Part shown: positions 2 to 9,288 of the stretch, piece by piece | Layout of the letters: each line of letters begins with the position of its first letter | Numbering within the stretch: the first letter of the stretch is position 1 | Assembly (NCBI GenBank): GCA_016215645.1 | Contig: JACRIX010000060.1 | Coordinates: forward strand, 1 to 64,000 | Source: Rhodocyclales bacterium | GTDB lineage: Bacteria > Pseudomonadota > Gammaproteobacteria > Burkholderiales > Rhodocyclaceae | Reading direction: 5' to 3' | Length of the DNA: 64,000 nt | Made by a program: the position numbers and the translations under genes | Notes under the pieces: model-generated | What the model was told of the DNA's origin: nothing | Seen by the model: only the letters and a program-made list of their open reading frames with translations | Database searches by the model: none

Positions 2-1381
2 ATGCTCGGCCTGTCGACCCACGCCTGGAAGGTTAATTTCTGCAAATTCACCAACGAGACGCGCAACGGCATCGAAGACTCCAGCCGTTACTCCGGCCTC
101 AAGTTCCTCGCCGCCTGCCACGGCACCACCGCCGGCGGCGGCTATGAGCTGGCGCTGGCCTGCGACGAGATCGTGCTGGTCGACGACCGCTCCTCCGCCG
201 TCAGCCTGCCCGAAGTACCCCTGCTCGGCGTGCTGCCCGGCACCGGCGGCCTCACCCGCGTCACCGACAAGCGCCGTGTGCGCCGCGACCACGCCGACAT
301 CTTCTGCACCCTGACCGAAGGCATCCGCGCCCAGCGCGCCAAGGAATGGCGCCTGATCGACGACTACGCCAAGCCCCAGGTCTTCGCCGAGAAGGTGAAG
401 CAGCGCGCCACCGAACTTGCCGCCAAGAGCGACCGCCCGGCCGACGCCAGGGGCATCGCCCTGACCCCGGTCAAGCGCACGATCGACGAGGCCGGCTACC
501 ACTACGAAACGGTGGACGTCACCATCGACCGCGCCGCGCGCCGCGCCACGCTGACCGTCAAGGCGCCTGCTGCCCCGGTGCAGTCGGCCATCGACCAGAT
601 CGTTGCCGCCGGCGCCAACTGGTGGCCGCTGCAGATGGCGCGCGAACTCGACGACGCGATCCTGATGCTGCGTACCAACGACCTCGAAGTCGGCACTTGG
701 GTGCTCAAGACCACGGGCGATGCCGCCCTCGCCCTGGCCGCCGACGCCGTGCTCGACCAGCAGCGCGGCCACTGGTTGGTGCGCGAGACCATCGGTATGC
801 TGCGCCGGACCCTGGCGCGCCTCGACGTCACCTCGCGCACCCTGATCGCCCTGGTCGAGCGCGACTCCTGCTTCGCCGGCACCTTGGCCGAATTGCTGTT
901 CGCCGCCGACCGCGGCTACATGCTGGCCCTGCCCAACGCCGCCGCCGAGGAAGGCCGCGTCACGCTGTCGACGATGAATTTCGGCGACTACCCGATGGTC
1001 AATGGCCAGTACCGCATCGGCGCCCGCTTCTACGGAGAAGAAGGCCCGATTGCCGCCGCGAAGGCCGCGATCGGCAAGCCGCTGGGCGCCGCCGCCGCGC
1101 TGGAACTCGGCCTCGTCACCGCGACCCCGGACGACCTCGACTGGGACGATGAGATCCGCATCGTCCTCGAAGAGCGCGCCAGCCTGTCTCCCGACGCACT
1201 GACCGGCATGGAAGCCAACCTGCGCTTCGGTCCCGGCGAGACCATGGAAACCCGCGTCTTCGGCCGCCTCTCAGCCTGGCAGAACTGGATCTTCATCCGC
1301 CCCAACGCCGTCGGCGAAGGCGGCGCGCTGAAGGTCTTTGGCAGCGGCAACAAGGCCAAATTCAATTGGGAACGCGTCTAA
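2..1381 (+). CDS. boxC: Benzoyl-CoA-dihydrodiol lyase BoxC (5'-truncated by window edge)
   Basis: The C-terminal 459 residues of a crotonase-family protein of about 550 residues; the start lies before the window. A crotonase core is seen early in the fragment (GTTAGGGYELALACDEI, then the LPEVPLLGVLPGTGGLTR region), followed by a long extension characteristic of BoxC rather than short enoyl-CoA hydratases. BoxC opens the dihydrodiol/epoxide-derived ring of benzoyl-CoA hydrolytically, giving 3,4-dehydroadipyl-CoA semialdehyde and formate. It is followed 40 bases later by boxB and then boxA, the standard box set, which fixes the assignment. The first codon read here is internal and is not a proposed start. 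Confidence 0.95.
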   Translation: MLGLSTHAWKVNFCKFTNETRNGIEDSSRYSGLKFLAACHGTTAGGGYELALACDEIVLVDDRSSAVSLPEVPLLGVLPGTGGLTRVTDKRRVRRDHADIFCTLTEGIRAQRAKEWRLIDDYAKPQVFAEKVKQRATELAAKSDRPADARGIALTPVKRTIDEAGYHYETVDVTIDRAARRATLTVKAPAAPVQSAIDQIVAAGANWWPLQMARELDDAILMLRTNDLEVGTWVLKTTGDAALALAADAVLDQQRGHWLVRETIGMLRRTLARLDVTSRTLIALVERDSCFAGTLAELLFAADRGYMLALPNAAAEEGRVTLSTMNFGDYPMVNGQYRIGARFYGEEGPIAAAKAAIGKPLGAAAALELGLVTATPDDLDWDDEIRIVLEERASLSPDALTGMEANLRFGPGETMETRVFGRLSAWQNWIFIRPNAVGEGGALKVFGSGNKAKFNWERV

Positions 1382-1421
1382 AACCCCAACCACAGATAGA
1401 ACCCACCCCACGGAGAATGCA

Positions 1422-2846
<1,425 letters not shown>

Positions 2847-2948
2847 GACGCGGCACCCCGCCTGATCCGGATTCCGGCCACCCTCCGCGGTGGCCGGAAG
2901 GCTGGTATCGTTCGCCCGTCGAACCCCCAACCGACCGAAGGACATGAC

Positions 2949-4184
2949 ATGACCACGATCATGCGCCAGCACCTGATCGATCCCGAGATCTGCATCCGCT
3001 GCAACACCTGCGAGGAAACCTGCCCGGTCGATGCCATCAGCCACGACTCTCGCAACTACGTCATCGACGCGGCCAAGTGCAAGCTTTGCTACAACTGCAT
3101 CTCGCCCTGCCCCACCGGCGCCATCGACAGCTGGCGCAACATGCCGGCGGACCAGGCCTACCCGACCGCAGAGCAGTTGTTATGGGACACGCTGCCCGGC
3201 CAGATCGCGCTCGACGCGCCTGCAGAAGTCGGCGCTGGCGGTACGGCGAGCGAGACGCCCGCAGATGTCGAACGCATCGCCGCCGCCTCCACCGCCGGCC
3301 AGGGCGGTGCTGCGCCCCCGCCGTGGTCGGCCGCCCACCCCTACATCAACCTTTACGGTATCCACAATCCCGCCGTGGCTACCGTCAGCGGCAATTTCCA
3401 GCTCACGGCCGAGGATGCCTCCAGCGACATCCGCCACATCGTGCTGGATTTCGGCAACGCCTCGTTTCCGGTGCTGGAAGGCCAGACCATCGGCATCCTT
3501 GCCCCGGGGCTGGACGCCAACGGCAAACCCCACCACGTGCGCCTGTACTCCGTGGCCAGCCCGCGCGACGGCGAGCGCCCCAAGTACAACAATCTATCGC
3601 TGACCGTGAAGCGCGTCACCGAGGACCACGACGGCAAGCCCGCGCGCGGCATCGGCTCGAACTACCTGTGCGACCTGAAGAAGGGCGACAAGGTCAATGT
3701 CGTCGGCCCTTACGGCACCAGCTTCCTGATGCCCAACCACCCGGGCAGCAACCTGCTGATGATCTGCACCGGCACCGGCTCGGCGCCGATGCGCGCCATG
3801 ACCGAACGCCGCCGCCGCAAGTTCAGTGCCGGCGAATCCCTCGGCAAGCAGATGCTCTTCTTCGGCGCTCGCAGCCCCGGCGAACTGCCCTACTTCGGCC
3901 CGCTGACCAAGCTGCCCAGGGAATTCATCGACATGAACCTGGCCTTCTCGCGCGTGCCGGGCGAGCCCAAGCGCTACGTGCAAGACCTGCTGCGCGAGCG
4001 CGGCGGCGACGTGGCGCGCCTGCTGCGCGACGAAAACACCTACGTCTATCTTTGCGGCCTGAAGGGCATGGAGCAAGGCGTCGAAGAAGCCTTCACCGAA
4101 GCCTGCCGCGCCAACGGCCTCGACTGGCAAGCGCTGCGCCCGCAGCTGCTGCTACAGGGGCGGTATCACGTGGAAACCTACTGA
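2949..4184 (+). CDS. boxA: Benzoyl-CoA epoxidase reductase subunit BoxA
   Basis: 411 residues. The N-terminus holds two 4Fe-4S ferredoxin motifs ([12 protein letters not shown] near residue 16 and [12 protein letters not shown] near 46). A linker follows, then a ferredoxin-NADP-reductase-like half: an FAD-binding RLYSVAS motif near residue 198 and a [10 protein letters not shown] nucleotide motif. It passes NADPH electrons to BoxB. The linker (about residues 90-125) is Ala/Gly/Thr-rich and is partly encoded by a copy of the dispersed AGTCGGCGCT repeat, read as VGAGGTA. A start 12 bases downstream (MRQHLIDPE) is also possible. Confidence 0.95.
3225..3250 (+). repeat. Dispersed repeat copy 1 (inside boxA)
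   Basis: Core AGTCGGCGCT followed by GGCGGTACGGCGA. It encodes VGAGGTA in the linker between the ferredoxin and flavin domains of BoxA, a position where added or altered residues would be tolerated. Nearly identical over 23 bases to the copies at 4203 and 44671. Confidence 0.8.
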
Positions 4185-7506: not shown

Positions 7507-7938
7507 TCAGGGCCGAATGTAGGCCCAGCCTTCGCGCTGCTTCTGCATCAACTCGACAACGCCTGCCTTGACGTAGCTGATCTTGTCGATCATGTCGTCG
7601 CGTTTGATCTTCTGATTGGTCATGGTGTTCTCGCAAGCCACCACCTTCACGCCCTGGGCCATGGCATCGATGATGCGGTTGGCAACAGTCGCGTCGGCCT
7701 TGAGCATGCCGATACCGGGGCCGTAGGCCACGATCTCTACCTCGGTATTGGCGGCACCGAGATCGGTCTGCACGTTCTTCGCGTTATTCAGCGCAAGATT
7801 CCACTTGGCCGGGTCGGCATCGCTGACCTGGAAGATCACGCGGGCCTTGGTGCTGGCATCGGCGGCGAGCGTCGGCAAGGGTGCGGCAATGGCAAGGGCG
7901 GCGGCAAACAGGGTGGCGCAGGCGGCATGTCGAATCAT
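7507..7938 (-). CDS. Secreted DsrE-like family protein
   Basis: 143 residues. The start at 7938 gives a clear signal peptide (MIRHAACATLFAAALAIAAP, cleavage near TLAADA) behind a GGAG ribosome site. The mature part is a DsrE/DsrF-type fold: a VIFQVSDADPAKWNLALNNA strand-helix, an EIVAYGPGIGML loop, a conserved Cys in VVACENT, and a C-terminal GWAYIRP. DsrE-family proteins often handle sulfane sulfur or persulfides; the periplasmic members are poorly understood. The mature region aligns along its length with the C-terminal domain of the anti-sigma factor at 8614. An ECF-type promoter in front of it matches the one in front of the divergent sigma factor, so it is probably a regulon member. Confidence 0.8.
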   Translation of the reverse strand: MIRHAACATLFAAALAIAAPLPTLAADASTKARVIFQVSDADPAKWNLALNNAKNVQTDLGAANTEVEIVAYGPGIGMLKADATVANRIIDAMAQGVKVVACENTMTNQKIKRDDMIDKISYVKAGVVELMQKQREGWAYIRP

Positions 7939-7982
7939 GGTGTCTCCTCGGTCGTGTGGTTTTTTGGGCGCTACACGCATGA

Positions 7983-8008
7983 GACGCACCAGGCGGCATC
8001 TTTATTCC
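7983..8008 (-). promoter_or_regulatory. ECF-type promoter for the DsrE-like gene
   Basis: On the minus strand GGAAT, 17 bases, then CGTC. The expected start of transcription lies about 35-40 bases before the DsrE-like ATG. It mirrors the element at 8034-8059; together the -35 parts form the inverted repeat TTATTCCC...GGGAATAA (8002-8009 and 8033-8040). Confidence 0.6.
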
Positions 8009-8033
8009 CAGTGCACCGCAGCATGAGATTGCG

Positions 8034-8059
8034 GGAATAATCCGGACTGACTTGACGTC
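8034..8059 (+). promoter_or_regulatory. ECF-type promoter for the sigma/anti-sigma operon
   Basis: On the plus strand GGAAT, 17 bases, then CGTC, the general shape of ECF-sigma promoters (GGAA-type -35 and CGTC-type -10). It ends 12 bases before the sigma-factor ATG, so the transcript would have a very short leader, and no Shine-Dalgarno is visible there. That fits autoregulation with leaderless or near-leaderless translation. Confidence 0.6.
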
Positions 8060-8071
8060 ATACGATCATCC

Positions 8072-8617
8072 ATGACCCTGCTTTCCTTTCTGTTTCACAG
8101 CCGCCAGTGGCGCACCGCCCTTGAGGGCGCCCGCCCCGGGCTTTACCGCGTCGCCTATTCCTGGTGCCGGGACGCGGCGCTGGCCGATGACCTGGTGCAG
8201 GAAGCCACGGCCAAGGCGCTGGAGCGTGGCGACCAGCTGCGCGATCCGGCGCGCCTGAAGAGCTGGCTGTTCGCCATCCTCTCGCGCTGCTGGCACGACT
8301 ACCTCCGCGCCCGACATCCGCACGAGGACATCGATGAACTGGCGGAAGAGTACCTTGCCGGCCCGGATTCGCCTGCCGACGACGTCGAGCGCAGCCAGAC
8401 CGTGGCGCGGGTGCGCGCCGCGGTGGCCCGCTTGCCTGTCGGCCAGCGCCAGGTGCTGACCCTGGTCGACCTGGAGGAATTCGGTTACGCCGAGGTCGGC
8501 GCGATCCTCGACATACCGATCGGCACGGTGATGAGCCGGCTGCACCGCGCCCGCCGCGCCCTGCGCGACGACTTGCTGCGCGCCGAGGCACAGGTGCCGT
8601 TGCGGAGGGTCAAATGA
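8072..8617 (+). CDS. ECF-family RNA polymerase sigma factor
   Basis: 181 residues, typical for a group 4 sigma factor. Region 2 spans about residues 20-85 (DLVQEATAKALERG, then SWLFAILSRCWHDYLRAR). Region 4 spans about 115-170 (LPVGQRQVLTLVDLEEFGYAEVG, then the helix-turn-helix IPIGTVMSRLHRARRALRDDL). The stop overlaps the start of the anti-sigma gene by 4 bases (ATGA), so the two are translationally coupled. The paired GGAAT-N17-CGTC elements upstream suggest it transcribes its own operon and the divergent DsrE-like gene. Confidence 0.9.
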   Translation: MTLLSFLFHSRQWRTALEGARPGLYRVAYSWCRDAALADDLVQEATAKALERGDQLRDPARLKSWLFAILSRCWHDYLRARHPHEDIDELAEEYLAGPDSPADDVERSQTVARVRAAVARLPVGQRQVLTLVDLEEFGYAEVGAILDIPIGTVMSRLHRARRALRDDLLRAEAQVPLRRVK

Positions 8618-9288
8618 AGACGGAAATTTCCGACGCGGAACTGAACGCCTTCGTCGATGGCGAGCTCGATTCCGCCGATCGCGAACGCGTACTGGCCGCG
8701 GTGGCGGTCGACGGTGAGCTGGCGCAACGCGTCTGTGCATTGCGTCTGCTGAAGGAGCAGTTGCGCCATGCCTATGCCGAGCCGCCCGCGGCATCCCGGC
8801 GCGGCGTCGCGCCGCGGCCCTGGCGAGCCCTGGCGATGGCGCTGATGCTGGCGGGCGCGGCGGGGGCGGGATGGATCGCCCGCGACCAGTCCGCCGCCAC
8901 GGAAATCCTTGCGAGCCGGGGTGATGCCGCCCACGTCATCCTGCATCTTGCGGCCGGGGATGCCGAGCGCGCGCGCAACGCGCTGGACGATGCCGAGGGT
9001 CTGCTGCGCGCGGCGAACGACGCAGGCCGTCCGATCGCGGTGGAACTGGTGGCCAATCGTGGCGGCCTCGACCTGTTGCGCGTCGACCTTAGCCCCCATG
9101 CCGCGCGAATCGCAGCGCTGCGCCGGGCGCATCCCAACTTCGAACTGGTCGCCTGCGGACAAACCATCGAGCGCCTGCGCGAAAAGGGCATCGAGGTGCG
9201 CCTGCTGCCCGGCACCCGCGTTGCCAGCTCGGCACTGGATCAGATCGTCACCCGCATGAACCAGGGCTGGTCCTACCTGCGCATCTGA
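8614..9288 (+). CDS. Transmembrane anti-sigma factor with periplasmic DsrE-like domain
   Basis: 224 residues. The N-terminal 55 residues (ISDAELNAFVDGELDSADRE...) resemble the cytoplasmic sigma-binding domain of anti-sigma factors, but without the zinc-binding His/Cys motif. One membrane helix follows (about residues 69-90, ALAMALMLAGAAGAGWIA). The remaining 130 residues align with the secreted DsrE-like protein at 7507: VILHLAAGD, ELVANRGGLDLL, LVACGQT with the matching Cys, and the terminal GWSYLRI. The only periplasmic cysteine is the one in VACGQT. I infer that this domain senses a thiol, sulfur or related signal outside the cytoplasm and releases the sigma factor. Confidence 0.8.
   Translation: MKTEISDAELNAFVDGELDSADRERVLAAVAVDGELAQRVCALRLLKEQLRHAYAEPPAASRRGVAPRPWRALAMALMLAGAAGAGWIARDQSAATEILASRGDAAHVILHLAAGDAERARNALDDAEGLLRAANDAGRPIAVELVANRGGLDLLRVDLSPHAARIAALRRAHPNFELVACGQTIERLREKGIEVRLLPGTRVASSALDQIVTRMNQGWSYLRI

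Follow-up and report, generated by a model that had tools for sequence, protein, structure and literature searches.

A regulatory module occupying positions 7507–9288 of a 64,000-nucleotide stretch of a Rhodocyclales bacterium genome (contig JACRIX010000060.1, the whole stretch being referred to as the window) encodes an extracytoplasmic function (ECF) sigma factor, a membrane anti-sigma factor whose C-terminal domain has the DsrE fold, and a divergently transcribed, secreted DsrE-family protein. The sigma/anti-sigma pair probably senses reduced sulfur species in the periplasm by means of its DsrE-fold domain, a reading that we hold with good confidence. The support found in the sequence comprises the domain architecture, the DsrE fold, an invariant sensor cysteine and a promoter common to the sigma gene and the divergent DsrE gene; in relatives, sox genes are likewise directly linked to the module or accompanied by its motif, and the same holds for genes of a sulfur transporter and of a YeiH-type exporter. 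The gene positions proposed for the module in an initial annotation, made from the sequence alone, were confirmed. The secreted protein (143 amino acids, 7507..7938, reverse strand) has a hydrophobic N-terminus and matches Pfam DsrE over the cut-off (E = 1.7e-7). The sigma factor (181 amino acids, 8072..8617, forward strand) matches Pfam Sigma70_r2 and Sigma70_r4_2 and the NCBIfam sigma70-ECF superfamily model, all over cut-off, and, being short and made of regions 2 and 4 with no further domains, belongs to the ECF (group IV) type. Its gene shares 4 bases with that of the anti-sigma factor (224 amino acids, 8614..9288, forward strand), which was assigned from alignment, cysteine count, AlphaFold model and fold match.

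The initial annotation had claimed that the C-terminal domain of the anti-sigma factor is a paralogue of the secreted protein, and the comparisons of sequence, profile and fold bore this out. Between the two window proteins, BLASTP gave 22% identity (27/121 columns) with E = 3e-5 as a single comparison. Relatives were gathered among named genomes with an anti-sigma alignment as query, the window protein having found no match in the named-genome contigs as a single sequence, and the best 80 of 163 were analysed, together with 51 secreted DsrE proteins. Profile comparison of 25 with 14 sequences gave a probability of 97.2 (E = 2.9e-11), rising to 99.6 (E = 6.3e-25) with the 80 anti-sigmas and 51 secreted proteins. 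Among solved chains, the anti-sigma C-terminus matched MTH1491 (1l1s), with E = 1.5e-4 as a single sequence and 7.8e-13 as a profile. AlphaFold models built from the two alignments (80 and 51 sequences), as the initial annotation had suggested comparing, reached a mean predicted local distance difference test score of 88.1 for the anti-sigma and 88.5 for the secreted protein, and both had 1l1s as best fold match, with template modelling scores by target length of 0.89 and 0.96, respectively; ST0148 (2pd2) followed in both cases, with YchN (1jx7) and DsrEFH (2hy5) lower. The VAC-x2-T and terminal GW-[AS]-Y-[IL]-R motifs reported earlier are indeed present in both window proteins. A chance likeness is ruled out by the BLASTP result, the profile comparisons and the fold matches of both models, and the sensor domain and the secreted product have a common DsrE fold. 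Pfam DsrE itself found no match in the window anti-sigma, and at E <= 0.01 it matched 19 of the 80 aligned anti-sigmas, the window copy not among them.

The anti-sigma model consists of an N-terminal three-helix domain (residues 7–53, 8632..8772; helices 7–14, 20–32 and 34–53), presumed to bind sigma, a long helix (residues 69–101, 8818..8916) which, from the model and its hydrophobicity, presumably contains the membrane span, and an alpha/beta domain (residues 107–223, 8932..9282), the presumed periplasmic sensor. The N-terminal domain gave weak profile matches to the N-domains of MucA and RseA (E about 0.03); with Pfam at E <= 0.01, RseA_N was found in 1/80 and zf-HC2 in 13/80 anti-sigmas, the window protein giving a single, sub-threshold zinc-finger match. 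The zinc motif HxxxCxxC of the classic zinc-binding anti-sigmas occurs in none of the 80, as had been noted for the window protein, and that class was rejected. A hydrophobic stretch separates the two domains in 80/80 sequences, and an excess of lysine and arginine on its N-terminal side in 76/80 argues for placing the DsrE domain in the periplasm; 46 of the 51 secreted partners begin with a strongly hydrophobic segment, some of the remaining five looking start-truncated. Only four columns are invariant across the 80 anti-sigmas, G86, C181, W219 and Y221. The sole fully conserved cysteine, Cys181 (codon 9154–9156, forward strand), is the candidate sulfur-binding residue, the next most conserved being Cys41 (73/80), in the presumed cytoplasmic domain. 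Likewise, Cys102 (codon 7633–7635, reverse strand), the sole cysteine of the secreted DsrE, is invariant in 51/51 linked homologues.

The intergenic region of the window contains two copies, found by eye, of a two-block ECF-type promoter, GGAATA-N16-CGTC, one directed towards each gene: at 7983..8008 on the reverse strand, towards the DsrE gene (a pattern match in its own genome), and at 8034..8059 on the forward strand, ending 12 bases 5' of the sigma start codon. When the 80 sigma-upstream regions were scanned with GGAATA and CGTC blocks and a spacer of 15–17, the motif faced sigma in 75/80 and the opposite direction in 61/80; dinucleotide-shuffled regions averaged 0.06 and never exceeded 1. 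In loci with a divergent DsrE gene it was directed towards sigma in 51/52 and towards DsrE in 51/52, and it also faced other divergent genes, namely those of SoxY (3/3), a sulfur transporter (1/1), SoxB (1/1) and a further DsrE (1/1), as well as four of the five remaining ones. The motif-faced divergent genes include those of SoxC in L092 (TIGR04555 over cut-off), a look-alike in L114 (assigned by eye) and, in L155, a persulfide dioxygenase-related metallo-hydrolase that scores below cut-off. A looser pattern applied to all genes matched upstream of sigma in 75/80 (reversed control 0) and of DsrE in 55/72 (control 1), the values being 0/8 for SoxX (control 1), 1/15 for SoxB (control 1), 0/13 for TauE (control 0) and 13/616 for other genes (control 19). 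Judging from these promoters, the sigma factor would be autoregulated, and the secreted DsrE looks like a member of its regulon, as had been claimed, because the same motif faces both genes.

The distribution of the module was examined in a family sample of 150 genomes and a genus sample of 31. Full-length relatives of the anti-sigma (E < 1e-38) were found in 14/150 family genomes and any match (E <= 0.001) in 26/150, the remainder being partial; the anti-sigma is present in 12/31 genus genomes. In the 26 loci read, which share genomes with the 80 named loci and are not an independent set, sigma lies directly 5' of the anti-sigma in 25/25 where the contig permits. A divergent DsrE gene accompanies the pair in 18 of them, seven have no DsrE and lie amid soxYZ, soxA, soxX and soxB, and one is cut by the contig. 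Among the seven, L042 lies opposite a Sulf_transp gene, and in L048 SoxY, SoxZ, SoxA, SoxX and SoxB exceed the cut-offs of the NCBIfam equivalog models. The named relatives belong to sulfur-oxidising beta- and gammaproteobacteria, including Sulfuricella, Sulfurimicrobium, Sulfuritalea, Sulfurisoma, Thiobacillus, Hydrogenophilus, Cupriavidus, Pandoraea, Acidiferrobacter, Thiogranum, Thiohalobacter and further gammaproteobacteria. A search of plasmids returned 11 records, each covering only about half of the query.

Genes in the named loci, two of which (L104 and L111) come from the same genome, were called with a simple in-house scorer, and neighbours were labelled with purpose-built family models, spot-checked on examples against Pfam and NCBIfam. 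The sigma/anti-sigma pair was recovered in 75/80, a divergent DsrE gene immediately beside sigma, by strict adjacency, in 49/80, any DsrE in 61/80, at least one sox gene in 18/80 and two or more in 15/80. Neither DsrE nor sox was seen in 7, including two contigs that start at sigma (L083 and L093) and L128, whose sox genes appeared in one round of gene calling and were missed in the next. The proposal that a secreted DsrE gene is always divergent from the pair was rejected on these counts, since homologues with no linked DsrE do occur, the outcome that the initial annotation had named as refuting its idea. Nevertheless, in most of the DsrE-less loci sox genes take the place of DsrE, a point in favour of the sulfur reading. 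In a tree of 78 sigmas, with L128 assigned by hand to the sox group, the sox label requires four changes, all four forced by starred branches; therefore, the link to sox was gained or lost more than once. Moreover, SoxB over cut-off is found in 13/14 family genomes with the anti-sigma and in 47/136 without it (Fisher p = 2.7e-5, kinship ignored). That this pair is surrounded by sox genes in other lineages makes a sulfur signal for the switch likely. Such a signal would also be the simplest explanation for three features together: the invariant cysteine, the promoter and the repeated association with sox and secreted DsrE.

Several features of these neighbourhoods were recorded separately. In many loci the gene after DsrE encodes a Porin_O_P protein (a cluster of 25, including L080 3311–4720), which also occurs at the sox operons of L131 and L134 and might give sulfur compounds a passage through the outer membrane. 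Two tandem sigma/anti-sigma pairs, with the DsrE gene after the second, occur in L101 and L149, and in L045, L047, L113, L138, L139 and L116 the secreted DsrE gene is followed directly by another, more distantly related one.

A strict form of the motif (GGAATAWW-N14-CGTC, with the reversed pattern as control) was found 35 times in 12 module-carrying genomes, and the control twice. These matches lie before sigma (12), linked DsrE (4), a linked sulfur transporter (1), soxY (3), unlinked DsrE (3), YeiH-type exporters (2) and others (10). In G046 and G101 the motif lies about 50 bp before an unlinked soxY and faces it, the sox operon being roughly 100–120 kb from the module. Across the genus, the 12 genomes that have the anti-sigma gave 45 matches and the other 19 gave 14, with 5 for the reversed control across all 31. 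Divergent motif pairs, about 40–50 bp apart, were also seen at G157 C142 260–324 and G162 C181 563–639, where no anti-sigma was detected; these may be modules cut at contig ends.

A number of observations weigh against a sulfur-sensing switch acting on sulfur genes. Four loci (L127, L150, L152 and L155) have neither DsrE nor sox despite adequate contigs, the family genome G073 has the anti-sigma and no SoxB match, and the DsrE-less loci weaken any mechanism needing an adjacent DsrE gene. In addition, 10 of the 35 strict matches are not ahead of any identified sulfur gene: two precede genes for secreted thioredoxin-like proteins (a Redoxin by Pfam in L264, and one recognized by eye, with no Pfam match, in L267), four overlap reading frames and four are uninspected (G050 C10, C22, C28 and C45). 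With the looser pattern, SoxY upstream regions gave 4/14 against 2/14 for the reversed control. In the genome of the window, the sox genes (contig C25) have no strict match near them, only sigma and DsrE carrying the strict motif, and a sox promoter of this type was rejected there; the visible regulon in this genome would comprise sigma, anti-sigma and DsrE only. Moreover, 7 of 10 genus sox loci carry the motif upstream of soxY oriented away from it (L207 9763–9788, L208 5994, L209 6799, L210 6006, L211 6342, L212 5693 and L216 5728); there it is conserved in the gap separating soxY from kup or from a different gene and possibly drives an antisense or small RNA; the three loci without it are those of the window genome and of two genomes without the anti-sigma. 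One of the seven, G153, has no detected anti-sigma, and neither does G168, which has the motif before a YeiH-type gene.

The sequence of events that we propose for the sulfur-sensing switch is as follows. At rest, the N-terminal domain of the anti-sigma would hold the sigma factor at the membrane. A sulfane-sulfur or thiosulfonate group, the most likely ligand on this analysis, would then be loaded onto Cys181, either directly or via a periplasmic carrier (the secreted DsrE or SoxYZ). Two points favour this ligand: in most loci DsrE or SoxY, each a periplasmic carrier with a cysteine, is among the targets beside the sensor, and the DsrE protein of a different organism is described as carrying thiosulfate (PMC4175335). 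The loaded domain could alter its shape or assembly, sigma being released by opening or proteolysis, and the freed sigma would transcribe its own operon and the secreted DsrE gene, together with sox in certain lineages. The secreted copy might, as suggested in the initial annotation, compete for the signal or deliver it. More tentatively, as an idea to which we give less than even weight, the secreted DsrE might assemble with the anti-sigma domain into a single periplasmic sulfur relay of unlike subunits, in the manner of DsrE/DsrF/DsrH; it would then be a detachable, self-induced receptor subunit for which SoxYZ substitutes where DsrE is missing. If this were true, the transcription switch would respond to whether a sulfur carrier is loaded and not to any free compound.

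The main rival, which we consider unlikely, is that sulfite is the signal and that the module, instead of sensing sulfane sulfur, serves for detoxification in the manner of the alphaproteobacterial ECF26 sigma factors RpoE4 and SigE, which answer sulfite and drive sulfite dehydrogenase genes (PMC6527743, PMC3511301). Genes of two families annotated as sulfite/sulfate exporters accompany the module: TauE/SafE genes adjoin the DsrE gene in many loci, and a YeiH-type (Cons_hypoth698) transporter of 561–584 amino acids has the motif ahead of it in 5 genomes (L207 12741, L215 6479, L217 4995, L260 4607 and L265 4657); furthermore, the divergent SoxC of L092 bears the NCBIfam name sulfite dehydrogenase. 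A bare cysteine yields an S-sulfonate only from an oxidised partner, and by that route a sulfite signal would be chemically feasible. However, the linkage is to the thiosulfate genes soxYZAXB, the motif precedes none of the 13 TauE genes counted, and the DsrE fold with its one invariant cysteine better suits a sulfur carrier. Still less probable, in our estimate, is that the DsrE-like domain acts only as a scaffold to which the secreted DsrE or some other carrier docks, the domain itself bearing no sulfur. DsrE-family proteins form homo- and hetero-oligomers such as DsrEFH and TusBCD, and G86, W219 and Y221, the most conserved residues besides the cysteine, could be contact residues; but Cys181 is invariant in 80/80 and is kept even in loci without DsrE on the stretch read. 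A general periplasmic thiol or disulfide stress sensor, whose sulfur linkage would mirror the life style of hosts that are mostly sulfur oxidisers and so commonly have sulfur genes as neighbours, would agree with the DsbC-type genes 5' of sigma in L108 and L109 and with the motif at the secreted redoxin of L264, but is improbable, since the sensor domain has a single invariant cysteine, hence no conserved intramolecular disulfide, and the promoters found repeatedly at DsrE and at sox are specific.

Sulfur sensing through a DsrE-fold anti-sigma can be set beside several known systems, each compared from partial accounts of the source. RpoE4 of Sinorhizobium meliloti and SigE of Starkeya novella are sulfite-responsive members of ECF26 with sulfite dehydrogenase as target and an open sensing mechanism (PMC3511301, PMC6527743). 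Like the module, they combine an ECF sigma with an adjacent anti-sigma, a sulfur-compound signal and a sulfur-oxidation target, with autoregulation in RpoE4; unlike it, the target is sulfite dehydrogenase and the descriptions, on which rather than on sequence this comparison is based, mention no DsrE domain. In Arcobacter butzleri, an ECF sigma (number 2) activates sox genes, as shown by microarray and reverse transcription PCR, which resembles the role proposed here; this organism belongs to the Campylobacterota, its genes are described as unlinked pairs, and its account mentions no DsrE sensor domain (PMC3445524). SoxR and sHdrR are ArsR repressors of sox genes that respond to sulfane sulfur, with SoxT1B (PMC11582611, PMC10451225, PMC12423496). 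They share with the module the sulfane-sulfur control of thiosulfate oxidation and a YeeE-type transporter beside sox (PMC11582611), but are cytoplasmic repressors needing sulfur import, whereas the membrane anti-sigma would sense in the periplasm.

As regards the sensor domain, MTH1491, ST0148, YchN and DsrEFH have the fold of the sensor and of the secreted protein but are stand-alone soluble proteins with no anti-sigma part. DsrE3A/TusA of Metallosphaera cuprina, in which the DsrE protein carries thiosulfate on a cysteine and passes it on, offers a chemistry model for the proposed sulfur loading, although these are archaeal sulfur-trafficking proteins with no sigma factor, as far as they are described (PMC4175335). 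No description of a DsrE-domain anti-sigma was found in the literature, judged mostly from titles and abstracts and with the published ECF classification outside the comparison; the module sigma may already have an ECF group number. From these sources, ECF control by sulfite and ECF activation of sox are already known.

The genes flanking the module in the window are conserved with it only in the nearest relatives. Those at 2–4184 resemble the box pathway of benzoyl-CoA degradation, which we take to be BoxC, BoxB and BoxA, and a presumed TRAP (tripartite ATP-independent periplasmic) transporter also flanks the module.

Extracytoplasmic sulfur sensing in sulfur oxidisers is described as poorly understood (PMC11582611). 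In this context, the module represents a concrete candidate for which a sensor cysteine, a promoter and testable target genes can be named, and cultivable strains, Sulfurisoma sediminicola BSN1 for example, carry it. The promoter could be transferred to a sulfur biosensor and, if the reading favoured here is true, the family would provide an anti-sigma factor that uses a sulfur-carrier fold as its sensor.

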